A DNA stretch of 14,080 nucleotides from Candidatus Raymondbacteria bacterium RIFOXYA2_FULL_49_16 (GCA_001789205.1 MFYT01000022.1:1-14080), one strand, 5' to 3'; positions 1-14,024 are shown, counted from the first letter of the stretch. Notes: generated from the letters alone by a model not told the origin. Made by a program: numbers and translations.

Positions 1-23
1 TCCTCTATCGATGAATGACGCCC
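1..23. repeat. Right part of a dispersed palindromic repeat, cut by the window edge
   Basis: The right arm gaatgacgccc is at 13-23. The bases before it (tcctctatcgat) resemble the end of the loop in the full copy at 62-114 (tcttctatggat), so this is probably the right part of another copy whose left arm lies outside the window. Together with 62-114 it would make two copies within about 115 bp downstream of ispG. Confidence 0.6.
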
Positions 24-61
24 CTGCAATGAATCGCAATGCATTTTCCCCATCATTTTCC

Positions 62-114
62 GTACGGGCGTCATTCGGCAAATGGCGTCTTCTATGGATG
101 AATGACGCCTGTAC
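62..114. repeat. Dispersed palindromic repeat, full copy downstream of ispG
   Basis: The left arm gtacgggcgtcattc (62-76) and right arm gaatgacgcctgtac (100-114) are complementary at 14 of 15 positions, around a 23-nt loop (77-99). The copy lies 41 bp past the ispG stop codon on the leftward strand. No U-tract follows the stem on either strand, so it fits a REP-like repeat better than a classical intrinsic terminator. The same arms recur at 8041-8089, 11712-11760 and 13994-14008. Confidence 0.8.
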
Positions 115-155
115 ATTCGATTTTCAATGAATTTTCGCCAATAATGATCCCTAAT

Positions 156-1214
156 TCACCATTCCTCGACAATCCTGACGACCTCACGGACCATCTCCTT
201 TTCGCCAACCTGTTTGATTTTTTTCCCTCGAATAAAAAGAAGGGCAGCGCCCTTGCCGCCTGCAAGGGCAATATCAGCTTCGCGCGCCTCGCCCGGGCCA
301 TTGACCACGCAACCCATGACCGCTATGCGAAGGGGCTTTTTGATGTGACGTACCATTTTCTCAATTTCAGCCGCGGCTTTTTCCATGTTGTACTGCAGCC
401 TGCCGCACGTGGGGCATGAAATGATCTCAGGGCTGACAATACGTGCGCCAGTGGCCTTGAGTATATCGTAGGCAACAGGGATCTCGTTAACAGGATCACC
501 AGTAAGAGAGACCCTGATTGTATCACCAATGCCATCGACAAGCAAGGCGCCTAAACCTGTTGCGGATTTTATTGAACCATAGTATTTACCGCCAGCTTCA
601 GTTATACCAAGGTGAATGGGATAATCCATTTTCTCCGAAAGATCCCGGTTTGCCGATACAGCGTCCATTACATGAGTCGCCTTAATGGAAACCACGAGCT
701 GATTATATCTAAGTGATTCACAAATACTGAGATAGTGAACAGCGCTTTCAACCATTGCCTTGGGGGTGGGTCCGGAATGTTTTTCAAGAAGCTCTTTTTC
801 AACTGATCCTGAATTCACGCCAATGCGCATGGCAACACCCTTGTTCTTACAGCAGCGGATAACAGCTTTAAACCGTTCGAGGCCACCGATATTTCCAGGA
901 TTTATCCGGATTTTATCCACCCCTACCGCAACAGCGGCAATGGCATATGCAGCCTGAAAATGGATATCAGCCACAAGGGGGACCGGGCAATATTTCTTAA
1001 TACCTGGCAGCGCTTTCAATGCCTTCAGATCAGGTACCGCAACGCGGACAATTTCGCACCCGGCATTCACAAGCCGCTTGATCTGTTTGCAGGTAGCGGC
1101 GATGTCCGAAGTCTTGGTGCTGGTCATGGATTGCACCCTGATAGGGTTGCCCTGGCCAAGGACAAGCTTCCCGACCCCTATTGCGCGAGTTTTCCGTCTC
1201 TGGGGATTATTCAT
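156..1214 (-). CDS. ispG: 4-hydroxy-3-methylbut-2-en-1-yl diphosphate synthase (flavodoxin/ferredoxin)
   Basis: This enzyme performs the penultimate step of the MEP isoprenoid pathway, reductive ring opening of 2-C-methyl-D-erythritol 2,4-cyclodiphosphate to HMBPP, in the cytoplasm using a [4Fe-4S] cluster. The 352 residues match the short bacterial two-domain form. The N-terminal TIM-barrel shows the family strings VQSMTSTKTSD (28-38), VADIHF (81-86) and KIRINPGNIG (101-110). The C-terminal cluster domain has SCPTCGR with C267 and C270, then GCVVNGPGE with C302 and E309, which are the expected three Cys and one Glu ligands. The start gives MNNPQRRKTR, a normal short leader. It is divergent from purD with a 62-bp gap and is followed by palindromic repeats. 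No other MEP-pathway gene is visible here. Confidence 0.97.
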   Translation of the reverse strand: MNNPQRRKTRAIGVGKLVLGQGNPIRVQSMTSTKTSDIAATCKQIKRLVNAGCEIVRVAVPDLKALKALPGIKKYCPVPLVADIHFQAAYAIAAVAVGVDKIRINPGNIGGLERFKAVIRCCKNKGVAMRIGVNSGSVEKELLEKHSGPTPKAMVESAVHYLSICESLRYNQLVVSIKATHVMDAVSANRDLSEKMDYPIHLGITEAGGKYYGSIKSATGLGALLVDGIGDTIRVSLTGDPVNEIPVAYDILKATGARIVSPEIISCPTCGRLQYNMEKAAAEIEKMVRHIKKPLRIAVMGCVVNGPGEAREADIALAGGKGAALLFIRGKKIKQVGEKEMVREVVRIVEEW

Positions 1215-1276
1215 TTATTTTAAAAGAATCAATAATTATATTTCAATATACGTTTTAACAGCGGAGATTTCAAACC
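1215..1276. promoter_or_regulatory. Divergent AT-rich promoter region between ispG and purD
   Basis: This 62-bp gap separates two divergently read genes and must hold at least part of both start signals. On the minus strand a tataat hexamer lies at 1240-1235, but no good -35 box sits at the usual spacing. On the plus strand cggag (1262-1266) is a plausible ribosome binding site 10 nt before the purD ATG. I see no riboswitch-like structure or PurR-type operator. Confidence 0.4.
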
Positions 1277-2539
1277 ATGAAAGTCCTGGTAATAGGCAAC
1301 GGCGGCAGGGAACACGCCATTGCTTGGAAACTCAAACAGTCTCCCCACATTTCAGAGATCCACTCCTCACCTGTCAATGTGGGCATCGCGTCATTCGGGA
1401 CCTGCACAAGCATTGCGGTGGAAGATACGCGCGGACTCCTCGATTACGCCATTAAAAACAGCATAGACCTCACAGTTGTGGGTCCTGAAGTGCCCCTGTC
1501 ACTGGGCTTGGTCGATGCATTCCGCGCAGCAGGAAAAAAAATCTTCGGTCCTACAAAGGCGGCGGCCCGTATTGAAAGCAGCAAGGCGTTTGCAAAAGAA
1601 GTAATGACAAAATATGGTGTACCCACAGCGCGCTATAAGAAGTTCTCGTCTGAGGCTGGGATCGAGGAATATATCCGTTCCTTCCCAACCCCTCCGGTCA
1701 TTAAAGCTGACGGCCTTGCAGCTGGAAAAGGGGTCACTATACCCGAAACCATGGACCAGGCAATACATGAGGCACGGGCAATGCTCAAAGAGGGTAAATT
1801 CGGTCCTGCAGGAGCCTCAATTGTCATCGAGGAATGCATGACCGGTCCCGAAGCCTCTATTTTCGCCATTACTGACGGCAATAATTTTAAAACATTCGCT
1901 TCCGCGCAAGACCATAAACGGGCGTTTGACAATGACCAGGGTCCCAATACCGGCGGCATGGGCGCCTATGCTCCTGCGAAAATAATCACCCCTGCCCTTC
2001 AGCAAGAAATTGATGAAAAAATCCTGCGGCCGGTAATACAGGGCATGGCAGCCGAGGGATGCCCCTATACCGGCATACTCTATGCTGGGCTCATGCTCAC
2101 GCCACAGGGACCAAAAGTTATTGAGTTCAACTGCCGGTTCGGAGACCCTGAAACCGAGGTCGTGCTCCCCCTGTTCAACGGCGATCTGTGCGAGGCAATG
2201 CTCGCCTCGATAAACAGCACAGTTGATAAAATTTCACTGCCAATGTTCCAGGGCACCGCTGTCACCGTGGTGCTGGCTTCAGGCGGATATCCCGATGCGT
2301 ATGAAAAAGGCAAGGTGATCACTGGTCTGGCTGAAGCTGAAAAAGCCGGGGCTATCATCTTTCATGCAGGAACAAAGAAACAAGGGCCCGATATTGTGAC
2401 CGCGGGCGGACGGGTCCTTAATGTGGTTGCCACTGGCCCAACTCTGAATGCCGCAATCACAACAGCGTACGCTGCCGCGGCCAATATCTCTTTTCAAAGA
2501 AAAATGATGCGCTCTGATATAGGCAAAAAAGGAATTTAA
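1277..2539 (+). CDS. purD: Phosphoribosylamine--glycine ligase (GAR synthetase)
   Basis: This cytoplasmic ATP-grasp enzyme makes glycinamide ribonucleotide from phosphoribosylamine, glycine and ATP, the second step of de novo purine synthesis. At 420 residues it has the usual length of monofunctional bacterial PurD. Signatures are the N-terminal GNGGREHAIAWKL (7-19), GPEVPLSLGL, the ATP-grasp region with KADGLAAGKGV, NTGGMGAYAPA, and the metal/ATP-binding EFNCRFGDPETE, with E283, N285 and the RFGDPE signature from R287. A GGAG ribosome binding site precedes the ATG by 10 nt. It is the first gene of the rightward cluster and ends 17 bp before purE, which acts in the same pathway. No purK or other pur gene is visible. 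Confidence 0.98.
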   Translation: MKVLVIGNGGREHAIAWKLKQSPHISEIHSSPVNVGIASFGTCTSIAVEDTRGLLDYAIKNSIDLTVVGPEVPLSLGLVDAFRAAGKKIFGPTKAAARIESSKAFAKEVMTKYGVPTARYKKFSSEAGIEEYIRSFPTPPVIKADGLAAGKGVTIPETMDQAIHEARAMLKEGKFGPAGASIVIEECMTGPEASIFAITDGNNFKTFASAQDHKRAFDNDQGPNTGGMGAYAPAKIITPALQQEIDEKILRPVIQGMAAEGCPYTGILYAGLMLTPQGPKVIEFNCRFGDPETEVVLPLFNGDLCEAMLASINSTVDKISLPMFQGTAVTVVLASGGYPDAYEKGKVITGLAEAEKAGAIIFHAGTKKQGPDIVTAGGRVLNVVATGPTLNAAITTAYAAAANISFQRKMMRSDIGKKGI

Positions 2540-2556
2540 CAACAAAGGAACAAACC

Positions 2557-3018
2557 ATGCAAAACCCTGTTGTCAGTATAGTCCTTGGCAGTAAATCCGA
2601 TGAGCCCAAAATCCAGAAATGCCTTGAAGCACTCACCGCATACAACATCCCTTTTGAAACAAACATTATGTCCGCCCACCGGACGCCAAAAAAGGTCGCT
2701 GCCCTTGCTTCGGGCGCTAGAGCGCGGGGCATCAAGGTCTTTATCGCTGCGGCTGGCCTTGCAGCGGCCTTACCCGGCACAATCGCGGCGCACACCACGC
2801 TGCCAGTCATCGGCATACCTCTTGCCGCTGGAGTCCTGAACGGCACTGACGCACTCTACGCTATTGTACAGATGCCTCCGGGGATCCCCGTTGCCACGGT
2901 GGGCATTGATAATGGCGCAAATGCCGCCCACCTGGCCGCGCAAATCCTTGCCGTTGAAAACGGAGAAATCTCCAGGAAAATCGCGGAATTCAGAGCAGGG
3001 TTTGGGGATGATCAGTAA
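2557..3018 (+). CDS. purE: PurE-family enzyme (N5-CAIR mutase or AIR carboxylase), atypical active site
   Basis: PurE forms 4-carboxyaminoimidazole ribonucleotide in purine synthesis. The 153-residue protein has the class I layout: LGSKSDEPK near the N-terminus, SAHRTP with catalytic H41, LPGTIAAHTTLPVIGIP, and QMPPGIPVATVGI followed by NAAHLAAQIL. The odd point is A-A-A-L-P-G at 69-74, where class I enzymes have A-A-H-L-P-G. The second active-site His (H75 in E. coli) is therefore Ala71. Class II AIR carboxylases also lack this His but carry SAHK and GRSN motifs, which are absent here. A ribosome binding site (aaagga) precedes the ATG. The 3' end overlaps tsaC by 11 bp. Family assignment is firm; which of the two reactions it runs is open. 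Confidence 0.93.
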   Translation: MQNPVVSIVLGSKSDEPKIQKCLEALTAYNIPFETNIMSAHRTPKKVAALASGARARGIKVFIAAAGLAAALPGTIAAHTTLPVIGIPLAAGVLNGTDALYAIVQMPPGIPVATVGIDNGANAAHLAAQILAVENGEISRKIAEFRAGFGDDQ

Positions 3019-3625
3019 AATAAAGGTCGCAAACCGGGCCGAGACCATCCAACGGGCAGCTGAACTGCTTAAAAAGGGCGGTGTCATTGTTCATCCCACT
3101 GAAACGCTCTACGGATTTGCGACAAACGCGCTCATTATAAATGCGATCAAGCGGGTGGATCGGATTAAAGAACGCGGACTTCGCGAAAGCTACATCATCC
3201 TGGTGCGCGATATTGATATGGCGCGATCCCTTCAAATTTCCTTTGACGAAACCGCTGTAAAACTGGCTGACCGGCACTGGCCTGGCCCACTGACGCTTGT
3301 GCTCCCGGTTTCCCGCGAATCATCCCTGCTCCACCTTGCATTCAATGGCGCCATAGGCATGCGCGTGTCCCCGGATGAATTCGTTAGAAAACTTTTTACC
3401 CACATCGATTTTCCCATCATATCGACCAGTGTAAACATAAGCGGCAAGCCGCCTATGAACGATATTACTAAAATTGAGGCGCAGTTTTACAACGACATTG
3501 ACCTTTTCTGCGGCAGAGGCACGCTGCCCCATCGTCCGCCTTCTACCATTGCCACTGTTGTGAACAATACCATAAAAATCCTGCGCAAAGGCGCTGTCTC
3601 TGAAGAGCAGGTATATGCCGTTTAA
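3008..3625 (+). CDS. tsaC: L-threonylcarbamoyladenylate synthase (TsaC/YrdC/Sua5 family)
   Basis: This enzyme makes threonylcarbamoyl-AMP from threonine, bicarbonate and ATP, the first step of the universal t6A37 tRNA modification. The 205 residues correspond to a single YrdC domain without the C-terminal Sua5 extension. Motifs are HPTETLYGF (29-37), the K54/R56 region, WPGPLTLVLP (91-100), GMRVSPDEF (117-125), STSVNISGKPP (139-149) and PSTIATV. The open frame extends upstream to 2864, but that part lies inside purE in another frame. The ATG at 3008 gives a proper family N-terminus (MISKIKVANRAETI), so I chose it. It overlaps purE by 11 bp and the next gene by 11 bp, which suggests translational coupling. 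The partner genes tsaB, tsaD and tsaE are not in the window. Confidence 0.93.
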   Translation: MISKIKVANRAETIQRAAELLKKGGVIVHPTETLYGFATNALIINAIKRVDRIKERGLRESYIILVRDIDMARSLQISFDETAVKLADRHWPGPLTLVLPVSRESSLLHLAFNGAIGMRVSPDEFVRKLFTHIDFPIISTSVNISGKPPMNDITKIEAQFYNDIDLFCGRGTLPHRPPSTIATVVNNTIKILRKGAVSEEQVYAV

Positions 3626-4073
3626 CATACTCTTTGTCTGTTCGGGAAACACCTGCAGAAGCCCCATGGCGGAAGGATTATTTAAGAATCTGCTGCCTCA
3701 GGACAAGAAGGAAAATTTCAGGGTTTCTTCCGCTGGTATTGTCGCTGCACCTGGCATACCCGCTTCAGACATGGCTATCGCGGCCATGCGGGAACTCGGT
3801 ATTGATATCTCACGCCACCGCTCTGAAGTGACAGGACAGGGAATTGTTGAAAAAAGTGACTTGATATTGGCAATGACCGAGAACCACAGCCAGTTTCTCA
3901 AACGCCAATTCCCGGACGCGGCAAACCGGGCCTTCACCCTTGCCGAATACGCGGACAAAAACGCGAAATCAACCGATATCACCGACCCTGTGGGTGGAAA
4001 TCTTGGCGAATACAGGCAAACACGCGACCAGATAAAACGGTTCGTTGAACAGATAATCGGAAACATGCAATAA
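3615..4073 (+). CDS. ywlE: Low-molecular-weight phosphatase, YwlE-type (probable protein-arginine phosphatase)
   Basis: This 152-residue protein is a complete LMW-PTP domain. The P-loop CSGNTCRSPMAE holds nucleophile C9 and phosphate-binding R15, and the general acid is D124 in DITDPVGG. T13, between N12 and C14, is the position that is Thr in Bacillus YwlE (T11), where it favours phosphoarginine, and usually Ile in tyrosine phosphatases (CLGNICRS). The rest also reads like YwlE (FTLAEYA, YRQTRDQIKRF). By family knowledge it would remove phosphate from arginine residues marked by a McsB-type kinase; no such kinase is in the window. It overlaps tsaC by 11 bp, echoing the ywlC-ywlE neighbourhood of B. 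subtilis. The domain is certain; the arginine specificity is inferred. Confidence 0.88.
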   Translation: MPFNILFVCSGNTCRSPMAEGLFKNLLPQDKKENFRVSSAGIVAAPGIPASDMAIAAMRELGIDISRHRSEVTGQGIVEKSDLILAMTENHSQFLKRQFPDAANRAFTLAEYADKNAKSTDITDPVGGNLGEYRQTRDQIKRFVEQIIGNMQ

Positions 4074-4077
4074 CCCC

Positions 4078-4839
4078 ATGGGCCGCATCCTTTTCCTTTG
4101 TCTCCTCGCCATATATATCCACGGGCAGGACCCTCTTAGACATGTAGAAAACAAGGTCTTTGGCCCTGACGAACGGTTTATCTTTAATGTCTCGTATGGA
4201 TTTATCCATGGCGGCTTTGCCTCGCTCGAGATCCAGGACACTGCTCGCATAAACGGCCACCTCTGCCACAAAATACGGGCCGTGGCCCACTCCAGCGCCG
4301 CGCTCTCTATCTTTTTTCCTGTGCGCGATACCAACTACAGCTATATGGATGTGGAAGGGCTCTTTTCCCGGAAAATCATCAAATACATCCGTGAGGGCAA
4401 CTATAAGCAGTTCAAATGGGCCTTTTTCGAGCCGGAAATACGGCGTGCAACCACTCGCGACACATGTTATACCACACTGCCTTTTGTGCAGGACGTAGTC
4501 TCCTCGTTCTATTATTTCCGGCTCTTTAACGTAAAAGACTCCCTTGACATCAACTGCTTTGACGATAAAAAGAACTACCCCATGCGCGTAAAGGTTGTAC
4601 GCAAAGAAAAGATAAAGACCCTGTTTGGAAAAATAGAGTGCCGGGTGGTGGAACCCCTGCTCACCTCCAGCGGCATATTCATGAAAAAAGGCCGGCTCCT
4701 CATATGGCTTACGGACGATGCAAGAAAAATCCCGGTCAAGGTAACGTTTAAGCTTCCTTTCCTGGGGCACATCACCTGCACGCTTGAAAAGCATTTCCCG
4801 GGATCTATTATTGCCCAGAGCGCCCCCCCTGTGCAATAA
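4078..4839 (+). CDS. DUF3108-like exported protein
   Basis: This 253-residue protein begins with a short hydrophobic signal-like segment (residues 1-16, ending IHG before QDP), so it is probably exported to the periplasm or outer membrane. The body resembles the DUF3108 family: an N-terminal GPDERFIFNVSYGFIHGG, a central YSYMD, and a late beta-rich part with FGKIECRVVEP, GRLLIWLTDDARKIPVKV and a final GHITCTLEK. No catalytic motif stands out and the function is unknown. The gene starts 4 bp after ywlE, has no clear ribosome binding site and probably depends on upstream translation. A long open frame on the opposite strand (3979-4836) is a shadow. The family call rests on pattern memory only. 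Confidence 0.75.
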   Translation: MGRILFLCLLAIYIHGQDPLRHVENKVFGPDERFIFNVSYGFIHGGFASLEIQDTARINGHLCHKIRAVAHSSAALSIFFPVRDTNYSYMDVEGLFSRKIIKYIREGNYKQFKWAFFEPEIRRATTRDTCYTTLPFVQDVVSSFYYFRLFNVKDSLDINCFDDKKNYPMRVKVVRKEKIKTLFGKIECRVVEPLLTSSGIFMKKGRLLIWLTDDARKIPVKVTFKLPFLGHITCTLEKHFPGSIIAQSAPPVQ

Positions 4840-4860
4840 ATTATATTATTTTGATTATTT

Positions 4861-5550
4861 ATGATGATCAAAACGATTGTCTGCGACATGGACGGGACCC
4901 TCTTTTCGTCAGAAAACATGGTTGGCGAAGCCTATGCCCGTGCCGTACGCGCCTTTAACCGGGAATTCTCGCGCAGGATGCGCATCCCAACGACCGAAGT
5001 CATCATGCGCGAAATTGGCCGTCCTGTTGAGGAGATACTCAAAATCATCTTTCCCCAGCTAAAGGATTCTGAGCGGGCCTTTATCCGCACGCTTTCCCGA
5101 AAATACCTGGTCGATCTTATCAAAGAGGACAAAGGCCTTGTCTATCCATCGGTCAAAGAAACAATCGCCATCCTAAAACAGATGGGATACAATCTTAAAC
5201 TGGCAAGCAATGGCGGCACAGCCTATATCAATGCCATACTCGACCACTATCACCTTTCCCCTATCTTCGGCCCCTTTATTCCGCTGAACAACGAGAACCT
5301 GAAGGACAAAGGCGACGTGCTCAACCTTCATAAATCGATTTTAGGCCTTATGGCAGATGAAATGGTGATGGTGGGCGACCGTCTGCAGGACGCGCAGGCA
5401 GCTGAAAAAGCGGGCTGCAGGTTCATCGGCGTCACGTATGGCCATGGAACCATCCGCGAACTGAAAAGCGCAGTAAAAATCATCCGTTCATTCCACGAAC
5501 TTCCGAACGCCATAGTCACCCTGGAAAAAGAGACAATAGTCAAAGTATAG
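4861..5550 (+). CDS. HAD-superfamily hydrolase, phosphoglycolate phosphatase-like
   Basis: This 229-residue cytoplasmic phosphatase-type HAD protein shows all four motifs: motif I DMDGT with nucleophile D9 and acid/base D11, motif II S116-N117 in LASNGG, a motif III lysine near 148-150, and motif IV GDRLQD with D173 and D177. The helical cap between residues about 15 and 90 marks a subclass I (Gph/PGMB-like) enzyme. Substrate cannot be read from sequence. It lies 18 bp upstream of serC, so a phosphoserine phosphatase role is conceivable but unproven. Two ATGs (4861, 4864) are in frame and neither has a ribosome binding site. The 21-bp upstream gap is almost pure A/T and could also hold a promoter. 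Confidence 0.9.
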   Translation: MMIKTIVCDMDGTLFSSENMVGEAYARAVRAFNREFSRRMRIPTTEVIMREIGRPVEEILKIIFPQLKDSERAFIRTLSRKYLVDLIKEDKGLVYPSVKETIAILKQMGYNLKLASNGGTAYINAILDHYHLSPIFGPFIPLNNENLKDKGDVLNLHKSILGLMADEMVMVGDRLQDAQAAEKAGCRFIGVTYGHGTIRELKSAVKIIRSFHELPNAIVTLEKETIVKV

Positions 5551-5568
5551 AACCGAAAGGAGCGCCCC

Positions 5569-6654
5569 ATGAGCAGAGTTTTCAATTTCAACGCAGGACC
5601 ATCAGTTTTACCAGTCGAAGCACTTGAAACCGTTTCCAAAGGCATTATCGATTTCAACAACAGCGGTATGTCCATCCTGGAAATGAGCCACCGGACCGCG
5701 GATTTTGACGCAGTCATTAAATCAGCCGAAAGCAACCTGCGCACGCTGCTGGGCATTCCTGAAGATTACGCTGTGCTTTTCCTTGGCGGCGGCGCATCAC
5801 TCCAGTTTACCATGGTTGCCATGAATCTGCTGCCCGAAGGCGCTACTGCGGACTATACTGATACCGGTTCATGGGCAAGCAAGGCGGCCAAGGAAGCGAA
5901 ACTCTTCGGCAAAGTAAACTATGCTTCGTCGTCAAAGGACAAAAACTATACCTTTATTCCCAAGACGCTGAATCTCACGAAGGGCGCGGCCTATCTGCAT
6001 ATTACCAGCAACAACACCATCTACGGCACTCAGTACCGGACCTTTCCCAAACCCGAGACAGGCGTGCCCCTGGTGGCCGACATGTCGTCCGATATTTTAA
6101 GCAGGCCAATAACCGTGTCTGATTTCGGTCTCATATACGCTGGTGCGCAAAAAAATATGGGACCTGCTGGCGTTGTCACGGTCATTGTCCGCAAAGATCT
6201 TCTTGGCAAATCAGGCCGCACCATACCCTCCATGCTCGACTACAAGGTCCATGCTGAGAATGTATCTCTCTACAATACACCGCCGGTCTTTGCCATCTAT
6301 GTTGTGTCTGAGGTGCTCAAGTGGCTCAAGGCAAAAGGCGGCATTGCCGGAATGGAGAAAATCAACGAACGCAAGGCCAAAAAGCTCTATGCGGCAATTG
6401 ATAGCAGCACGCTCTTTACCGGCACCTGCGCAAAAGAAGACCGCTCGTACATGAACGTGGTTTTTGTATTGAAGAACAAGAATGAGGATCTGGAGAAAAA
6501 ATTCCTCGCGGGCGCCAAGGAGCGCAAGCTTGTGGGCCTCAAGGGCCACCGCAGCATCGGCGGCTTCCGCGCCTCCATCTACAACGCCTTCCCCGAAGAG
6601 GGCATTGACGCGCTAGTCAAATACATGGAAGAATTCGCCAAGGCGAATAGTTAA
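5569..6654 (+). CDS. serC: Phosphoserine aminotransferase
   Basis: SerC converts 3-phosphohydroxypyruvate and glutamate to 3-phosphoserine and 2-oxoglutarate, the second step of serine synthesis; it can also serve PLP synthesis. The 361 residues match the family length. It begins FNFNAGPSVLP and contains MEMSHRT-like ILEMSHRTADF, FLGGGASLQF, and the PLP-lysine motif YAGAQKNMGPAG with K195. It ends with HRSIGGFRASIYNAFP and a helical C-terminus. An AAAGGAG ribosome binding site (5556-5562) precedes the ATG by 6 nt, the best in the cluster, so it is probably well translated. It closes the rightward cluster and is followed by hairpin terminators. serA and a canonical serB are not present. Confidence 0.97.
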   Translation: MSRVFNFNAGPSVLPVEALETVSKGIIDFNNSGMSILEMSHRTADFDAVIKSAESNLRTLLGIPEDYAVLFLGGGASLQFTMVAMNLLPEGATADYTDTGSWASKAAKEAKLFGKVNYASSSKDKNYTFIPKTLNLTKGAAYLHITSNNTIYGTQYRTFPKPETGVPLVADMSSDILSRPITVSDFGLIYAGAQKNMGPAGVVTVIVRKDLLGKSGRTIPSMLDYKVHAENVSLYNTPPVFAIYVVSEVLKWLKAKGGIAGMEKINERKAKKLYAAIDSSTLFTGTCAKEDRSYMNVVFVLKNKNEDLEKKFLAGAKERKLVGLKGHRSIGGFRASIYNAFPEEGIDALVKYMEEFAKANS

Positions 6655-6665
6655 TCCCCCTAGTC

Positions 6666-6683
6666 CCCCCTTTTCGAAGGGGG
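6666..6683 (+). other. Short hairpin with TTCG loop after serC
   Basis: The arms cccccTT (6666-6672) and AAggggg (6677-6683) form a perfect 7-bp stem closed by a ttcg tetraloop, starting 12 bp after the serC stop codon. No T-tract follows, so it may stabilise the serC mRNA 3' end rather than terminate transcription. Confidence 0.5.
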
Positions 6684-6696
6684 CATCCATGAGTAA

Positions 6697-6740
6697 CCTA
6701 AAATAAAAGAGCCCGTTCCCACGGGCTCTTTTATTTTAGG
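6697..6740. terminator. Bidirectional intrinsic terminator between serC and the oxidoreductase gene
   Basis: A perfect 20-bp stem (6697-6716 with 6721-6740) encloses a 4-nt loop (tccc). The inner part is GC-rich (gagcccgt/acgggctc), and the outer part is an A-run on the left arm and a T-run on the right arm. This is the classic layout of a terminator that works in both directions, fitting its place between convergent genes. Confidence 0.85.
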
Positions 6741-6750
6741 CAATACGTCA

Positions 6751-6785
6751 AAAAAACGCAGGCCTCGATCGCGACCGAGGCCTGC
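6751..6785 (-). terminator. Intrinsic terminator of the oxidoreductase gene
   Basis: Read on the minus strand, a 10-bp GC-rich stem gcaggcctcg/cgaggcctgc (6785-6776 with 6767-6758) around an 8-nt loop is followed by a run of six T's (6756-6751). It lies 31 bp past the stop codon of the leftward oxidoreductase gene, the expected place for its own terminator. Confidence 0.85.
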
Positions 6786-6816
6786 TACCAAAACAGCTAT
6801 AGGTGAGATAAAATTA

Positions 6817-7848
6817 TTACCCTACTTCAACGACCTTCCCGGTTTTCTCCGACTGCTTCATTGCGAGAAGCACTTCGAGTACATGCCGCCCTTCCTGGAT
6901 GGGAACAACGTTAACCGGATACCCGGTGTCGGCCTTTTCCCCGGTCACAGCCTGGACAAAGGCACGCATGGCATCATCGCCATATGATTCGGGTGTAAAT
7001 TGGATGGAATGGCCACCATGGCCGTAGCGCGCCTTGTTTTCAGCGTCAAAACCGCGGATAAACAAACTCTTGTGATCAATAGTATATCCGCTGGCCTTGG
7101 TACCAACGTATTCAAGGAATTCCGTATGCTGCTGGGTAAGTCCATCGTTGAGGCAAGCAATGGCGCCTGACTGCGTGGTAAGAATTGCGCTGATCGCCTC
7201 TTCTGAAGGGCATTCGGAAGCGCTTTTAGCCGTTTTACAAAAGACCGAAACAACCCGTTCGCGTGTGAGGCGTAAAACAAAATCGACCTGGTGGCACATG
7301 TGGTGCAGAATCCATCCGCCGGAAAGCTCCGGGGTAAGTACGGCCTTGTGCGCGCTGTTCTGGCAAAAAAGGCCTACGCTCCGGTCAATCCGGTGAATCA
7401 GGTGCAGGGGCTTGCCGAATTCGCCCGCATCGGCCAACTCAATCAGTTTCCGGCTGACTCCGCCAAACCGCATGCCAAAATTGCAATGGGTGATCACCTT
7501 TGCCTTCTCTACGGCCTTGATGATCTCGTCGTAGTCCTCGAGACTGAGGACCAGGGGCTTTTCAGCCCAGAGAGGTTTCTTTGCCACGCATACCTTGAGA
7601 CAGTGTTCCTTGTGGAGAGAGTTCGGCGACGCAACAATGATTGCTTCGACCTTTGGGCTATTGATGAGTTCGTCAATATCATTAGTCCCGACAAAGCCAT
7701 TGGCAAAAATCTGTTCTTTGGTCTTCTCGCTCCGGGTCCATATCAGGGAGATATCAGCGGCCGTGGTGTTCAGGGCCATGCGCGCAAGATGCATGGCATA
7801 CGGCCCATAACCGATAAGACCTATCTGGAGACGTTTGGCAGGGGTCAT
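6817..7848 (-). CDS. Gfo/Idh/MocA family NAD(P)-dependent oxidoreductase
   Basis: This 343-residue cytoplasmic protein has the two-domain Gfo/Idh/MocA layout. The N-terminal Rossmann fold has the dinucleotide loop GLIGYGPYA (10-18), then VASPNSLH (72-79) and the signature AEKPLVL (95-101) with K97. The C-terminal substrate domain has GGWILHHMCHQVD (177-189), where H186 and D189 match the conserved H-x-x-D; the usual Asp four residues before that His is H182 here. Members oxidise or reduce sugars, inositols and similar polyols; the substrate cannot be told. A strong ribosome binding site (aaggag, 6-7 nt before the ATG) fixes the start. It is a single-gene unit with its own terminator and an operator-like inverted repeat upstream. 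A 207-codon frame on the other strand (7291-7914) is a shadow. Confidence 0.92.
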   Translation of the reverse strand: MTPAKRLQIGLIGYGPYAMHLARMALNTTAADISLIWTRSEKTKEQIFANGFVGTNDIDELINSPKVEAIIVASPNSLHKEHCLKVCVAKKPLWAEKPLVLSLEDYDEIIKAVEKAKVITHCNFGMRFGGVSRKLIELADAGEFGKPLHLIHRIDRSVGLFCQNSAHKAVLTPELSGGWILHHMCHQVDFVLRLTRERVVSVFCKTAKSASECPSEEAISAILTTQSGAIACLNDGLTQQHTEFLEYVGTKASGYTIDHKSLFIRGFDAENKARYGHGGHSIQFTPESYGDDAMRAFVQAVTGEKADTGYPVNVVPIQEGRHVLEVLLAMKQSEKTGKVVEVG

Positions 7849-7861
7849 GAAATACTCCTTT

Positions 7862-7902
7862 TGGTAAAATATTGTAAGTCCAGAGAAAATAAAATTTTAC
7901 CA
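7862..7902 (-). promoter_or_regulatory. Operator-like inverted repeat and possible -10 box upstream of the oxidoreductase gene
   Basis: The arms tggtaaaat (7862-7870) and attttacca (7894-7902) are perfect 9-bp inverted repeats with 23 nt between them. On the minus strand a TACAAT hexamer (7876-7871) lies between the arms, 23 bp upstream of the start codon. The arms could be a repressor-binding pair flanking the promoter. No good -35 box is seen, and the regulator is unknown. Confidence 0.4.
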
Positions 7903-7952
7903 GCAGAGGAGTAAAAACAAAAAGGGGGCGCTATTCAGAAACATTGTCTGGG

Positions 7953-8100
7953 GGTGGCATGCAATTAATAGGATGCCACCTATACGTGCTCAAAATATCA
8001 TTCATACATGAACACAAATAATCCTTTTCTCCGGATCTTTGTACGGGCGTCATTCTGCGAAAAAAGGCCACGTTCGTTGAATTACGCCCCTCCAGAGGGG
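7953..8100 (-). repeat. Conserved 3'-flanking block of the 1166-aa VWA gene, copy 1
   Basis: This non-coding stretch is closely similar to 11624-11769 behind the sister gene. It carries two inverted repeats: ggtggcat/atgccacc (7953-7960 with 7973-7980, 12-nt loop) and the palindrome at 8041-8089. Between them lies a nearly invariant string including acatgaacacaaataatcc. The similarity runs without a break into the last coding bases of the gene. It may be a shared 3' UTR, a remnant of the duplication unit, or a region kept alike by gene conversion. Confidence 0.75.
8041..8089. repeat. Dispersed palindromic repeat, copy behind the 1166-aa VWA gene
   Basis: The left arm gtacgggcgtcattc (8041-8055) pairs with gaattacgccc (8079-8089) with one mismatch over 11 bp, around a 23-nt loop. 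Inside the loop cgaa and ttcg can extend the stem. It lies 11 bp beyond the stop codon of the leftward gene. Confidence 0.8.
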
Positions 8101-11100
8101 CTATTTCACCATTATCATCTTGCGTTGCTGCACAACACTCCCGGCCTCCATGCGGCACACATACAAGCCCGACTGCACGCCCCTGCCCAGGGCATCTTTC
8201 CCATCCCATATTGCCTGATAATATCCAGGCTCATGCATACGGCCCACCAACCGGAAAACGATCTCTCCCCTGACATTGAAAATGGTCAGAAAAACAGGCG
8301 CTTGTGTGGGAACAGCATAGTTCAAGGTTGCTGTTGGATTAAAAGGGTTTGGTGTTGGATCGGACAATAAAAACATTGCAGGCAACGCGTTCCAAGGCGG
8401 ATTTTCGATCGCAATATTCCCTGAATCAATTTTGAAAAAAACAGTGTCTAACAACGGCGCAATACCAAGACCCGATGTATCAAAACGGGCAATCAGACAA
8501 ATCACATTTGCTACGTAATTTATTGGTTTCAAGGCTATTGTTGCGCTTTGAGAAAAAGCAGTTTCCTCGCACCAGGAATAATCAGACGCTATCCACTGAA
8601 CGCTTAAAGAGTATGCATCATGGCCCGGATTAAGGTTGCTCGCTTGTTTGACTCGCAAGACAACAGTATCTCTAAGCGCTCCTAAAACAATGGTATCATT
8701 CGATTGTATGGGTTCCTGTCTGTATTGTGTTCCCTTTGTATTATAGATGCCGGTCTCGTACAAGCTCTGGAAATCATTGGACGAATCAGCATATATCGTG
8801 TTTGTTATAAATGAATATGGGGGCAAAGTTATAGCGACGGTGTCATATTGCGTAGATGCATTTACTCCAGCAATAGGCTGGGCGTTAAGTGTTGCGACCA
8901 GCAAATATGTGGGCCATAGACCACTAGGCGTACTCGTTTTGATGATAACACATTCGTTAGTTGATACATCATATAGAGGAACCGTCAGATATGTGTATGC
9001 CGCGATATCCGTAAAGCTCCATCTCTCAATCGGATCGTTTGCGACCGCATAGCCAAAGTCGTCGCGAATAACTGCGTACAAAGTATCTGACTGCATATTA
9101 ACCGGCAAAGTAATGGCCTCTATATCAAGAATTGGGGTATTTGTGTTAAGGATTGCCGGCGCTGTTTCAATATGGAGGTAACGATGCACACCCAAACCCC
9201 AACTAACGATCATTGTATCGCGAATGCTATTGTAAACTGCCACTACGGTGTCTTTTTCACCAGGCTCATTGGTAAGTTGGAGTACGGGGTCTGCACCACC
9301 TGTTGAGGATCGTATGACTCCATTGACATACCAAGTTAGTTGTGTTGCGTTGAACGGCACCTCGGCATTACCCACAAAATGGGGACCAGAAACATTGATG
9401 TCAAAAATGAGACCAACAAGTTTCACTGTATCTTGGGCGCTTGGAGAAACAACCAATCCTGGTCTGTTGTACAAAATATCTTTATTGACCTGGTTTATAT
9501 AATCAGCATACTGGTTAATAACAATAACATCTGCAGTATCATAATCCGTAGTATCACGTATGATCAGGTTGAAGCTCCCTGTTTTTACCTGGCCTGCTGG
9601 CGCGGATGGCGTATAAGTAATCGTTATAATTCCCGTATCATTGACCGGAGTATTTGTCCTTGCAGGTAATTGCGCATTGCTTAAAAGAATGGCTTTGCTA
9701 TTTGAACTACCTGATAAAATACTTGTAAAATCATATGTAGAAAAACCAGAAGCGCTCCACTGGGCGTCAATGGCCCAAAAATTCAGAAAGTTTGTGCTTC
9801 CGGTTGAATAGAAAGAACAGGGCAAAGTAGCGAGTTGATTGTAGTTTCCCATAATGGTATAGGTTGTCAGAAATTGGCTGGTAGACGTGATTTGGGGCGC
9901 AGCCTGTCTTGTGATGCCGGCGACAGTGACTGATTCATCCACAGCAATGTACATGGCGTTGAAGATTATTGAATCCCTGAAAGTAGCGCTGCCATCATTG
10001 TAGGAAATGGAAAGAGTGCGTTGGCCTGCCAATGCATTATTCCCTGCAATCGAAAGTCCAAGAAATTGAAAGGAACTAATACTATTCGTTATACCACCGG
10101 GGGGGTTAGCCACCCAGCCTGATATGGGAGAAAAATTCCATGTTGCTGCAATCTGGGCATATTGTGTAATACCCGTACCACGTTGGAGTAAAAGAGGATA
10201 AAATATGACTGGCCCGTATTTTGCCGTATCGGCTAAATTGTAAGAAAGGTGTATTATCTGGCCGGGGTCGGTGAATGCACTGGGGCTTGTGGAGATGAAT
10301 ATTCCATCGTTCAGAGAGCGTACGTATATATATGCCCGTCCAATAGGTGTAAGGATAGTTTGGCCGACCATGTTTATATATTGCATTTTGGAATAATTTA
10401 TAGCATCATCACTGGCGGCATTATTCACACGCTTACGTTCCGTAGGCCCGCCAGAAAGCGTGGTACGCGCTGCTGAAATATCGTAATGAATTTCAAAAAA
10501 CTGGCCGAGTTTAACAGTATCAATAGAAAAATTTAGAACCTGGTAGCCGCCGACATTGGTGACAGAAAAGTTGGCGGGAACAATATAACCAGCAGCTGTG
10601 TTGGCGCCATAGCTGCCTGGCACAAAATGAATGTCTGGCCCCAATACATCAACGACCATCGGCGTGCTCGAGTTGATTTTTTTGGCTATAACGTCGACAA
10701 TATCGGCCCAAAAACTTTGGAAAATCGGCGAAAGATCAGCCCCGCTGTTTGAATAGGCCCATTGGCCGTTTCCAGCTGCGGCAATGTTATGTAGGTAATT
10801 ATTAACATCTTGCAGTCCAAGGTTAATTGTATATACCTTGAGATTAACACCGGCATTTCGGACTGAATCGATAACACGGATAACTGAATCAACGGCTGCA
10901 ATTTCTACAGGTCCCAAATTTGGCTGTAATGCGGGCCAACAATATCCGTAACCGCTATAACAGTGTACGGTACCCCATTCGCCAGAAGCATTATCATCGC
11001 CATCCGTAAGGGCAATGACTATTGGAATTGCGCCTTCGCTCTTCCGGTAATTTGCAGCAACATAACGGACGGCATTGTGAATGCCCGTATAAAGGGCTGT

Positions 11101-11601
11101 CCCGTTATAAACAGTGCCATTGACCATCGCCGAACCATTTACAAAAGTATCGATTCTTGCTTTAACAAGGTTAAGATCAGATCCCAGGAGGCACGAGGTT
11201 CCCACAACAGCGCTGAAATACATGTGACCAATACGCATGCCGGGATTGCCAAAGCTATCAATGAAATTCGCACACGCATTATATGCAGCCTGAATACGCG
11301 AACACGTATCGGTCCAATCACGATCACCTGCCTGACGGCCGCCCATCGACCCGCCATTATCGGTCACAAATATAATGTCGTATTTCTGACCAAAAAAAAG
11401 AGTGCCGTTGCTGGCATACCCGTGTAGTGTCACAGTTGAACGCGTATTGTACGATCCATACGCATCTGCACCTTCAAAATAGATGGTATCGTGCGATAAA
11501 GTACGGGTAATAAACAATTCGGAAGTATCCGTCTGGCAAAACGCAACACTTGAAAAGATTAGAACCAATAGCGCAGATGAAATAAATTTCTTAGAAACCA
11601 T
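8101..11601 (-). CDS. Large secreted VWA-domain protein with C-terminal type IX-like sorting domain
   Basis: The 1166-residue protein starts with a signal peptide (1-22, cut likely after FCQ). A von Willebrand A domain spans about 72-310, with a MIDAS-like DNGGS at 81-85 and LTDGDDNASG with D200. The first MIDAS serine is Gly83. Five Cys in the domain (100, 110, 137, 214, 221) are shared with the sister protein, suggesting disulphides in an extracellular domain. Residues 310-550 are beta-rich and shared; about 560-1065 is unique, beta-rich and probably Ig-like. The last 90 or so residues (NPFNPTATLNY to QQRKMIMVK) form an FlgD-Ig/T9SS-type tail, implying transport to the cell surface. VWA domains usually bind proteins or matrix; the ligand here is unknown. 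No strong ribosome binding site is seen. By eye the gene is AT-richer than the housekeeping genes. Confidence 0.9.
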   Translation of the reverse strand: MVSKKFISSALLVLIFSSVAFCQTDTSELFITRTLSHDTIYFEGADAYGSYNTRSTVTLHGYASNGTLFFGQKYDIIFVTDNGGSMGGRQAGDRDWTDTCSRIQAAYNACANFIDSFGNPGMRIGHMYFSAVVGTSCLLGSDLNLVKARIDTFVNGSAMVNGTVYNGTALYTGIHNAVRYVAANYRKSEGAIPIVIALTDGDDNASGEWGTVHCYSGYGYCWPALQPNLGPVEIAAVDSVIRVIDSVRNAGVNLKVYTINLGLQDVNNYLHNIAAAGNGQWAYSNSGADLSPIFQSFWADIVDVIAKKINSSTPMVVDVLGPDIHFVPGSYGANTAAGYIVPANFSVTNVGGYQVLNFSIDTVKLGQFFEIHYDISAARTTLSGGPTERKRVNNAASDDAINYSKMQYINMVGQTILTPIGRAYIYVRSLNDGIFISTSPSAFTDPGQIIHLSYNLADTAKYGPVIFYPLLLQRGTGITQYAQIAATWNFSPISGWVANPPGGITNSISSFQFLGLSIAGNNALAGQRTLSISYNDGSATFRDSIIFNAMYIAVDESVTVAGITRQAAPQITSTSQFLTTYTIMGNYNQLATLPCSFYSTGSTNFLNFWAIDAQWSASGFSTYDFTSILSGSSNSKAILLSNAQLPARTNTPVNDTGIITITYTPSAPAGQVKTGSFNLIIRDTTDYDTADVIVINQYADYINQVNKDILYNRPGLVVSPSAQDTVKLVGLIFDINVSGPHFVGNAEVPFNATQLTWYVNGVIRSSTGGADPVLQLTNEPGEKDTVVAVYNSIRDTMIVSWGLGVHRYLHIETAPAILNTNTPILDIEAITLPVNMQSDTLYAVIRDDFGYAVANDPIERWSFTDIAAYTYLTVPLYDVSTNECVIIKTSTPSGLWPTYLLVATLNAQPIAGVNASTQYDTVAITLPPYSFITNTIYADSSNDFQSLYETGIYNTKGTQYRQEPIQSNDTIVLGALRDTVVLRVKQASNLNPGHDAYSLSVQWIASDYSWCEETAFSQSATIALKPINYVANVICLIARFDTSGLGIAPLLDTVFFKIDSGNIAIENPPWNALPAMFLLSDPTPNPFNPTATLNYAVPTQAPVFLTIFNVRGEIVFRLVGRMHEPGYYQAIWDGKDALGRGVQSGLYVCRMEAGSVVQQRKMIMVK

Positions 11602-11623
11602 GTTTTTCTCACATTTTTATTAT

Positions 11624-11769
11624 GGGCGGCATGTAATTCATTGGATGCCACCCATACCTGCCCAAAATATCATTTTACATGAACACAAATAATCCTTTTC
11701 TTCGTATTTTTGTACGGGCGTCATTCTGCGAAAGAAGACTGCGTTCGTTGAATGACGCCCCTCCAAAGG
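11624..11769 (-). repeat. Conserved 3'-flanking block of the 658-aa VWA gene, copy 2
   Basis: This is the counterpart of 7953-8100. It holds the inverted repeat gggcggcat/atgccaccc (11624-11632 with 11645-11653, one mismatch), the shared acatgaacacaaataatcc string and the palindrome at 11712-11760. Here the block ends 22 bp upstream of the start codon of the 1166-aa gene, so it fills nearly the whole gap between the two paralogs. Any promoter for the downstream gene must lie in it or further upstream. Confidence 0.75.
11712..11760. repeat. Dispersed palindromic repeat, copy behind the 658-aa VWA gene
   Basis: The left arm gtacgggcgtcattc (11712-11726) and right arm gaatgacgccc (11750-11760) are perfectly complementary over 11 bp, with a 23-nt loop whose cgaa/ttcg can pair further. 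It lies 9 bp beyond the stop codon of the leftward gene. Confidence 0.85.
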
Positions 11770-13746
11770 CTATTTCACCATTATCATCTTTCTCTGCTGC
11801 ACAAAATTCCCGGCCTCCATGCGGCATACATGCAGGCCCGACTGCACACTCCTGCCCAAGACATCTCTCCCATCCCACACTGCCTGATAATATCCAGGCT
11901 CGTGCATACGGCCCACCAACCGGGAAACGACCTCTCCCCTGACATTGAAAATGGTCAGAGAAACAGGCGATTGTGTGGAAACAGCGTAGCTCAAGGTTAC
12001 TGTTGGGTTGAATGGGTTTGGCGTGGGGTTGGACAAGGCAAATGCATCCGGAATTTTATGTTCCGGCTGTTTTTCTGGTTTATCGCTAGAATAAACAGCA
12101 TTGAAGATCAAAGAATCGGTATACACCGCATTACCGTCATTGTAAGAAATAGATAGACTACGTTGTCCGGCAAGCACCTCGTCTCCGGCAATTGTGAGGC
12201 CAAATGTCTGAAAGGAACGAATTGAATTTGTAAGACCGCCAACCGGGCTGGTGATCCACCCTGAGATGGGAGAAAAATCCCAGTTAGCAGGCACTTGAGT
12301 ATACTGAGTAATACCTGTTCCCCGCTGAAGCAATAAAGAATACAATGTTATAGGACCGTATTTCGCCGTATCGTATTGGTTGAAAGACAAGAAAATACCA
12401 CGACCTGGATCAGTGAATACGCCGGGGGTCGTTGAAAAATAAACACCATCGGTCAGAGAGTGAACGAAAATATACTTTTGTGGTATTGGTTTAATTATTT
12501 GAATGTCGGCTGAATTAATATACTGAATTTTGGAATAAATCACAGAGTCATCAGACAAACTGTTATTCACCCGTTTACGCTCAACGAGTCCACCAGCAAG
12601 CGTGGTACGCACGGCAGTAATTTCGTATCGCAATTCTAAAAATTGACCAGGAGCGATCGTATCGATAATAAAACTTAATATCTGCCCAGTCGCAGTATTC
12701 ATAATCGAGCAACTTCTTGGGACAATATAGCCGTAACCAGCGGTCGCGCTATAGCTTCCTACAACAAAATGTATGCCCGGTCCAAGCGCATCAACAATCA
12801 TTGGCTTATTTGCGGATATCGATTTACCTGCAATAAATTTATTAAAACAATGCACCGAGCTATTGGAGATGAGCATGTCAGTACCCGTCTTGGTATATTG
12901 CCATTGTCCAGCACCTACACCAGCAAGCTTTTTTAAATAGGCGCTATCCTCAACTGAACTGATATTTATAGTATAAACTCGCAGATCAATTCCGACGTTC
13001 CGGATGGAATCAATGACTTTGATAACTGAATCAACAACTGCGGACTCGGTAATCCCAAGATTCGGTTGAAGCGAAGGCCAGCAATAACCATAGCCGCTTG
13101 CGCAGGTTGTGGTCCCATACGCTCCTGATGCATTATCCCCTCCATCAGTAAGCAGTATCACTACAGGCATCGACCCTTCAGATTTTCGAAAATTAGTCGC
13201 AACATAACGAATAGCGTTGTATATTCCCGCATATATTGCTGCCCCACCATAGAGAACACCATCCACTGTCTGAGAGCCGTTGATAAACGTATCAAGTTTT
13301 GCTTTGGCTAGTACGGCATCCACTCCCAACGAACACGACATACCCGTAATCCCGCTAAAATACATATGGGCAAAATGAATACCCGGATTTTGGAGACTAT
13401 CGATATAATTCGCGCAGGCGTTATATGCGGCCTGTATCCGGGAACATGAGTCGCTCCAATCCCTGTCACCAGACTGGCGCATACCCATTGACCCGCTGTT
13501 ATCAGTAACGAAAACAATATCATATTTGGGATAAATTATCAGTGTCTCTGCAAACGCGCAGCCTCGAAGCGTCACTGTTGTACGCGTATTATATGGGCCA
13601 TACGCATCAGCGCCTTCAAAATAGATTGTATCGTTAGAGAGAGATCGAGTTATAAATACCTCTGAGGTATCAAGAAAAATGCATTGCCCAAAAATTCCAA
13701 GGGGGCACAGCAGAAAAAAACAAATAAGCAGCAATGATTTAGGCAT
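11770..13746 (-). CDS. Secreted VWA-domain protein with C-terminal type IX-like sorting domain (shorter paralog)
   Basis: The 658-residue paralog of the 1166-aa protein has a signal peptide (1-21, ending GIFGQ) and a VWA domain at about 73-310. The metal-site motif is intact (DNSGS 82-86, then LTDGGDNASG with D201), and five Cys (101, 111, 138, 215, 222) match those of the sister. The shared beta-rich part ends near residue 552. A short Lys/Glu/Pro linker (about 553-565) leads straight to the sorting tail (NPFNPTVTLSY to QQRKMIMVK), which I count as 68 of 82 residues identical to the sister's. Residues 288-312 diverge abruptly from the sister without a length change. No clear ribosome binding site precedes the ATG. 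It is probably displayed at the cell surface for adhesion or binding; the ligand is unknown. Confidence 0.9.
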   Translation of the reverse strand: MPKSLLLICFFLLCPLGIFGQCIFLDTSEVFITRSLSNDTIYFEGADAYGPYNTRTTVTLRGCAFAETLIIYPKYDIVFVTDNSGSMGMRQSGDRDWSDSCSRIQAAYNACANYIDSLQNPGIHFAHMYFSGITGMSCSLGVDAVLAKAKLDTFINGSQTVDGVLYGGAAIYAGIYNAIRYVATNFRKSEGSMPVVILLTDGGDNASGAYGTTTCASGYGYCWPSLQPNLGITESAVVDSVIKVIDSIRNVGIDLRVYTINISSVEDSAYLKKLAGVGAGQWQYTKTGTDMLISNSSVHCFNKFIAGKSISANKPMIVDALGPGIHFVVGSYSATAGYGYIVPRSCSIMNTATGQILSFIIDTIAPGQFLELRYEITAVRTTLAGGLVERKRVNNSLSDDSVIYSKIQYINSADIQIIKPIPQKYIFVHSLTDGVYFSTTPGVFTDPGRGIFLSFNQYDTAKYGPITLYSLLLQRGTGITQYTQVPANWDFSPISGWITSPVGGLTNSIRSFQTFGLTIAGDEVLAGQRSLSISYNDGNAVYTDSLIFNAVYSSDKPEKQPEHKIPDAFALSNPTPNPFNPTVTLSYAVSTQSPVSLTIFNVRGEVVSRLVGRMHEPGYYQAVWDGRDVLGRSVQSGLHVCRMEAGNFVQQRKMIMVK

Positions 13747-13774
13747 ATCGTTATTCTAGTTGTATCATTACCAT

Positions 13775-13810
13775 TAATAGATTAGACCCTGATAATAGAT
13801 TAGACCCTGA
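13775..13810. repeat. Two tandem copies of an 18-bp unit
   Basis: The unit taatagattagaccctga occurs at 13775-13792 and again, identically, at 13793-13810. It lies 29-64 bp upstream of the start codon of the leftward 658-aa gene, so it could be a pair of regulator sites or simply a small tandem duplication. Confidence 0.8.
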
Positions 13811-13844
13811 ATACCTAGAATTTATCCAATTTTTATCTCATTTA

Positions 13845-13864
13845 ATATCATAGTGTTATGATAT
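13845..13864. promoter_or_regulatory. AT-rich inverted repeat upstream of the 658-aa VWA gene
   Basis: A perfect 8-bp inverted repeat, atatcata (13845-13852) and tatgatat (13857-13864), is separated by gtgt. It lies about 100-120 bp before the start codon. The symmetry suits a dimeric regulator, but no family can be named. Confidence 0.35.
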
Positions 13865-13993
13865 GATCAAAAAACAGGCTGTCGCGTAACACCAATATTC
13901 ATCCCATTAGTTACTGTTTTGCAATAATTGTTCTAAAAAAAGGCGGGAAATAGCTCATGGTATGCTGCGGGGGCAAAAAAAGCCAGGGTTGCT

Positions 13994-14008
13994 GAATGAC
14001 GCCTGTAC
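13994..14008. repeat. Dispersed palindromic repeat, half copy behind the right-edge gene
   Basis: The right arm gaatgacgcctgtac is identical to that at 100-114. The preceding bases (aaaaaagccagggttgct) resemble the loop of the copy at 8041-8089, but the left arm is not recognisable, so this is a degenerate copy. It lies 41 bp past the stop codon of the gene at the right edge. Confidence 0.65.
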
Positions 14009-14024
14009 AGATATGTATGTGAGC

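Follow-up and report, generated by a model that had tools for sequence, protein, structure and literature searches.

Contig C22 of Candidatus Raymondbacteria bacterium RIFOXYA2_FULL_49_16 (GCA_001789205.1), whose whole stretch of 14,080 bp is referred to below as the window, carries several copies of a 54–56-bp palindromic element that recurs throughout the 5.43 Mb genome (112 contigs). This element probably constitutes a lineage-private, non-autonomous family of miniature mobile hairpins of the type known as repetitive extragenic palindromes (REPs) and REPINs, the hairpin-forming REP doublets. It behaves as REP-type mobile repeats of known kind do, yet it has an unusually large loop of near-fixed length and flanks none of the four candidate REP-type transposase genes found. 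The proposal of the first-pass annotation that these palindromes are REP-like mobile repeats is supported by their dispersal, extragenic location and ability to form hairpins, as well as by sharp 55-bp edges, tandem arrays and compensatory changes in the stem.

Structure of the element

Alignment of the copies gave the consensus TGTACGGGCGTCATTC-TGCAATnGnnGnCnTCnATTGAT-GAATGACGCCCCTGCA, in which TGTAC GGGCGTCATTC is followed by the loop TGCAATnGnnGnCnTCnATTGAT and then by GAATGACGCC CCTGCA. The inner arms of 11 bp are near-identical and extend to imperfect arms of 16 bp; apart from GTAC, neither arm is palindromic in itself. When loops of 5–60 nt were permitted in the extracted DNA, the lengths obtained were 23 nt (n = 31), 22 nt (n = 5) and 24 nt (n = 6), and values outside this range turned out to be overlaps or spurious. 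The fixed 23-nt loop described in the first-pass annotation thus holds for the window and for the 31 copies, but not for the genome as a whole. The arms are much better conserved than the loop, which is partly an effect of searching by the arms, and their spacing is near constant; the loop sequence is loosely conserved, at both of its ends. A folded loop interior was rejected, as the loops were no more stable than shuffled ones.

Changes in the stem are compensatory: double-sided cells number 17 (shuffles, 4.5) and the covariation score is 0.159 (shuffles, 0.101), and none of 500 shuffles was as high in either measure. The arm variants within this test included ATTC/GAAT, ATGC/GCAT and ACGC/GCGT, and variant copies are found on contig C15 (GGGCATTATGC/GCATAATGCCC) and on contigs C90 and, with one mismatch, C79 (GGGCGTCACGC/GCGTGACGCCC). 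Independent stem changes are few, because the C79 and C90 copies occupy the same position in paralogous genes and represent one event, and the C15 copies are mutual duplicates. Positions 5 and 51, which face each other at the stem foot, are unpaired in 24 of 36 copies, most commonly as C.C. On the complementary strand, one foot reads GCAG or GTAG (GYAG) in 20 of the 36 distinct copies and the opposite foot is GTAC in 18. With a stem of 11 bp, extendable to 16 bp with mismatches, and a loop of 22–24 nt, the element falls outside the loop range published for REPs (stem 5–13 bp, loop 2–20 nt; Di Nocera 2013, PMC3733652).

Genomic distribution and dispersal

The two-arm pattern with a 23-nt gap and up to three mismatches matched 32 places per strand genome-wide, whereas the reversed control matched none. 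Exact single arms gave 54 and 58 matches compared with 6 and 5 for the reversed control, and were mostly paired in the extracted genome regions; unpaired exact arms in the extracted DNA were either pieces of copies or coincidental matches elsewhere. A covariance model brought in further copies with altered arms, giving about 51 copies in 39 loci over the whole genome. This number is a lower bound, because the assembly is broken at repeat arrays, with the contig pairs C20/C22 and C110/C14 each ending in a shared array. Within the window, GGCGTCATTC with at most one mismatch occurs nine times against 1.15 expected, which none of 200 shuffles reached.

In an all-against-all comparison of copies with 80-bp flanks, unlinked copies aligned only over positions ~81–135, corresponding to the element alone (for instance, C14_51 with C85_18054 at 81–137, 89%, and C11_8795 with C20_448 at 86–135, 98%). 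Since the similarity between unlinked copies ends at the element edges, a defined unit has been dispersed, and larger matches between copies were explained by tandem arrays or gene duplications. The units of the tandem arrays measure ~42, 52, 65, 87, 92 and 96 bp, and some of them are without the second arm. On C15 (L111:5469-6014), an exact duplication with an offset of 492 bp bears the ATGC/GCAT arm variant twice in identical form, and a third, inverted copy of this variant lies 2.1 kb off.

No target-site duplication was apparent, flank repeats of at least 4 bp numbering 1 against 2.15 by chance. A subset of copies is central in unrelated longer palindromes, with flank pairing of −14 kcal/mol or lower in 5 of 33 copies against 1.1 expected (p ~0.007), and these flank palindromes differ by site (e.g., gtgcgtgtg...cacacgcac and gatcccccc...ggggggatt). 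This suggests that a minority of copies inserted centrally into hairpins that were already present. Flank pairing was rejected as a feature of the family at large, being not significant by pair number and confined to the subset defined by energy.

Position relative to genes

Gene contexts were derived from extracted genome regions using a simple script as gene caller, and a few gene ends overlap the element. All copies (51 sites in 39 loci) lie in intergenic DNA except two paralogous intragenic model hits. These are the GGGCGTCACGC/GCGTGACGCCC variant copies at C79:9997-10050 (L115:2998-3051) and C90:13090-13143 (L113:3091-3144), situated within two paralogous open reading frames of 547 and 648 aa. 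Both neighbours are known for 30 loci, which divide into 16 tandem, 8 divergent and 6 convergent arrangements, close to the shares of these arrangements in intergenic DNA (58%, 30% and 12%, respectively).

In 12 of these 30 loci a stop codon is found no more than 20 bp away, against 6.6 expected from random placement in the same gaps (p = 0.001), and in two a start is as near, against 3.6 expected. The location just after stop codons claimed by the first-pass annotation is therefore true of the window, but genome-wide it is a 3′-end bias and no rule, because eight loci are found between divergent genes. Such a bias is usual for REPs, conv-REPs being located <20 bp from 3′ ends (PMC3733652). 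Of 16 gene ends no more than 20 bp from a copy, 12 are faced by its CCTGCA end (one-sided p = 0.04), a post hoc observation that fades with distance and is gone beyond 40 bp. At 11 near-stop loci, the first 8 bases past the hairpin, read in the direction of the gene upstream, contain only 0–3 T, and a role as rho-independent terminator was rejected; the earlier remark that these are not ordinary terminators is supported. No functional theme was found in the adjoining genes: 56 neighbours contain 106 Pfam families, and the most frequent family occurs in four.

Copies in the window

The copies in the window and the gene ends next to them are listed in Table 1. Arms and 23-nt loops were located where the first-pass annotation had placed them, save for one mismatch in the right arm at 8079–8088 (gaatTacgcc), because of which the fold z of that copy is only −1.5. 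The three full copies it had counted are all present, but those starting at 8041 and 11712 share one origin, both belonging to a single segmental duplication (8005–8098 versus 11676–11769, 90% identical) that takes in the 3′ ends of a pair of paralogous VWA genes. They count once, so that the window holds two independent full copies and fragments. Both partial copies are real. The one previously delimited at 1–23 is cut solely by the contig edge, since window positions 1–64 are identical to the terminal 64 bp of contig C20, on which the copy is whole; the two contigs are thus neighbours broken within the repeat array. The one given as 13994–14008 is a half copy, with one arm and half a loop at 13991–14009.

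Table 1. Copies of the element and associated sequence in the window.
Position	Strand	Feature	Arm/loop/arm	Evidence or remark	Nearest gene end
1..28	+	Right half of copy (loop end, arm GAATGACGCC, CCTGCA edge)		Cut by contig start; complete on C20	
29..60	.	Tandem-array spacer, unit ~87 bp, common to C20			
61..115	+	Full copy: CGTAC+GGGCGTCATTC, 23-nt loop 77-99, GAATGACGCC+TGTACA	62-76/N23/100-109	63.4 bits; RNA fold z −5.3	40 bp beyond stop codon 156-158 of leftward ispG/gcpE gene
8040..8094	+	Full copy, one arm mismatch	8041-8055/N23/8079-8088	62.0 bits; fold z −1.5	6 bp beyond stop codon 8101-8103 of leftward VWA gene 8101-11601
11711..11765	+	Full copy, duplicate of the 8040-8094 copy	11712-11726/N23/11750-11759	66.2 bits; fold z −4.4	4 bp beyond stop codon 11770-11772 of leftward VWA gene 11770-13746
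13981..14009	-	Truncated half copy (one arm + half loop)		TGTACAGGCGTCATTC + AGCAACCCTGGC on minus strand, then T-run	~41 bp beyond stop codon 14050-14052 of next leftward gene

The two VWA genes encode paralogous secreted proteins with an FNP...SGxYxCR sorting tail, and well over 100 further matches to tails of this type occur in the genome. Upstream of the VWA gene at 11770–13746, TAATAGATTAGACCCTGA is present twice as an exact tandem (13775–13810). Between serC and the next gene, a perfect 20-bp inverted repeat with a 4-nt loop, CCTAAAATAAAAGAGCCCGT (6697–6740), looks like an ordinary two-way terminator.

Relatives and candidate mobilising enzymes

The repeat was absent from 59 relatives searched by pattern and from 166 other genomes of the phylum searched by model, weak hits being obtained in one genome only (G027). 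These hits are a 31-bp classical short REP, TGTAGGGGCGTGATTCAATCACGCCCCTACA, whose arm is nearly as in the element and whose loop is almost absent; no Y1_Tnp match was found in that genome. As a lead rather than proof, comparison of the two sequences hints that the element may derive from a GTAGGGGCG-type REP that gained a long loop. Across 84,980 species genomes, the exact two-arm pattern matched singly in three places, where the loops were unrelated; this is about the one match estimated to occur by chance and indicates no relatives. In addition, Rfam contained no match to the repeat, none of the plasmid records and viral contigs carried it, and a literature text search with the arm sequence yielded unrelated top matches and no description of it.

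Four Y1_Tnp genes in the assembly, one each on contigs C31 and C107 and two on C18, resemble those of REP-associated tyrosine transposases (RAYTs), and all of them score below the NCBIfam RAYT cut-off. The RAYT-like gene on contig C107 (L043:5770-6516) has a REP of its own, GTAGGGGCGGGTTTCAAACCCGCCCCTAC, on either side; six copies of this REP were found in the genome, and the arms of the element begin like it. This gene also contains an in-frame GTAGGGGCGGGTTTCAAACCCGCCCCTAC copy encoding the peptide GAGLKPAPT. Three DDE_Tnp_1 genes are present in the genome as well. Among 100 listed of the 112 exact arm matches, no arm pair encloses a gene. The element may have been moved by a RAYT acting in trans, by a RAYT since lost or by one located in an assembly gap.

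Proposed mechanism and alternative explanations

For a mobile hairpin of the REP/REPIN type, the arms would fold in the single-stranded state, on the lagging-strand template or a displaced strand. A Y1/HUH (RAYT/IS200)-type transposase acting on single strands could then recognise in trans the folded stem together with its foot, whose two sides are GYAG and GTAC and which a mismatch usually separates from the main stem. The enzyme would cut and rejoin at the foot and leave no target duplication. The stem and the overall length would be the features read by the enzyme, so that the loop sequence could drift while its length is held. Insertions probably persist chiefly between genes and near 3′ ends because little harm is done there, and slippage at the palindrome would later generate tandem arrays. 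If mRNA 3′ ends are affected at all, this would be a secondary consequence.

Several observations weigh against this explanation. The TnpA_REP/RAYT partner considered in the first-pass annotation did not emerge: none of the four Y1_Tnp genes is flanked by the repeat, and they carry other palindromes or none, although a flanking copy may be missed where the assembly is broken at repeat arrays. The GYAG foot is seen in only 20 of 36 copies, compared with GTAG in >90% for most GTAG families (PMC3733652), and the loop exceeds the published 2–20 nt. No empty site was demonstrable in a genome set that includes no close relative, and the missing target duplication is equally compatible with some DDE elements. 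The element is not classed as a strict member of the REPs or REPINs, because its loop is out of range, no RAYT gene is flanked by it and the tag is present in part of the copies.

It is unlikely that the element is instead a very short miniature inverted-repeat transposable element (MITE) whose 16-bp terminal inverted repeats (TG...CA) stem from a DDE insertion sequence, either lost or unseen, and which that sequence's transposase would move in trans as duplex DNA. The sharply bounded unit with its TG...CA inverted ends and the three DDE_Tnp_1 genes would suit such an origin. Many MITEs have a target-site duplication; here flank direct repeats are at chance level, by which a DDE MITE with target duplication was rejected. 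Moreover, no arm pair was seen around a gene among the listed matches, 55 bp is unusually short, and the 22–24-nt loop limit and compensatory stem changes better fit a folded strand. A selected cis element, acting as an mRNA 3′-end hairpin (exonuclease barrier or processing site) or as a paired protein site with half-sites ~34 bp apart, would account for the stop-codon bias, the orientation of the CCTGCA end, the strong hairpin, the near-fixed spacing and the conservation of the arms, the last being in part a product of the search. This is also improbable, as about a quarter of the scorable loci lie between divergent genes, the adjoining genes share no common function, the orientation bias is lost beyond 40 bp and the repeat is absent from relatives in the phylum; tandem arrays and truncated copies resemble repeat decay rather than selected sites.

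The earlier suggestion of recombination sites found no support. A site for a site-specific recombinase, for example an attC-like folded integron site, is very improbable even though the hairpin is imperfect with mismatches, copies form tandem clusters and tyrosine recombinases are present in the genome. No integron integrase exceeded the TIGR02249 cut-off (best 121 bits versus 265; all 14 control genomes likewise give below-cut-off matches), and an integron attC site was rejected on this ground. Furthermore, the consensus is without the GTTRRRY core and the arrays repeat one spacer without differing gene cassettes. There is a slim chance that the copies form a hairpin transposable family outside the RAYT/REPtron systems, in which a single-strand enzyme of a deep-branching lineage would measure the 22–24-nt loop and favour palindrome centres.

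Comparison with known families and implications

REPINs are REP doublets that form hairpins, in which the spacer sequence is variable whereas its length and the hairpin capacity are critical (Bertels and Rainey 2011, PMC3116915). Like the element, they have conserved inverted ends, two in number and ~16 nt long, and spacer length counts for more than spacer sequence; compensatory changes, extragenic dispersal and clusters are also common to both. Unlike in the element, each REPIN end is itself a REP, whereas the arm of the element is no palindromic REP; 71 bp separate the 16-mer starts in SBW25 GI, compared with a spacer of 22–24 nt; and no cognate RAYT was found for the element. With the GTAG-tagged REP superfamily (Nunvar 2010, PMC2817692; PMC3733652) the element has in common that it forms extragenic stem-loops near 3′ ends and that its arms resemble those of GTAGGGGCG-type REPs, while a GYAG head is present at one foot in 20 of 36 copies; many published families of this superfamily likewise contain only 20–100 units. 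Compared with these, the element has a longer loop, a stem longer than most, a degenerate head and no flanked RAYT.

CGTC-tagged REPs resemble the element in having no associated transposase, but their loops are 4–5 nt, their stems 8–9 bp and their CGTC is terminal and unpaired, whereas that of the element lies inside the stem (PMC3733652). The TIR repeats of TIRYT elements are also long inverted ends outside the canonical REPs (PMC3733652), yet they are defined by a flanking tyrosine transposase gene, not found here. NEMIS, RUP and ERIC (named in PMC3733652) are, like the element, small, extragenic and hairpin-forming with terminal inverted repeats, but they are larger, and the element is without target-site duplication.

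The repeat accounts for at least two contig breaks in the assembly. REP-type repeats have been studied best in Proteobacteria and cyanobacteria, together with their matching RAYTs. As a family private to a distant lineage, with a large loop of restricted length and no cognate RAYT found, the element can serve to test which of stem, foot and loop length make a hairpin mobile, and whether orphan REP families are driven in trans.

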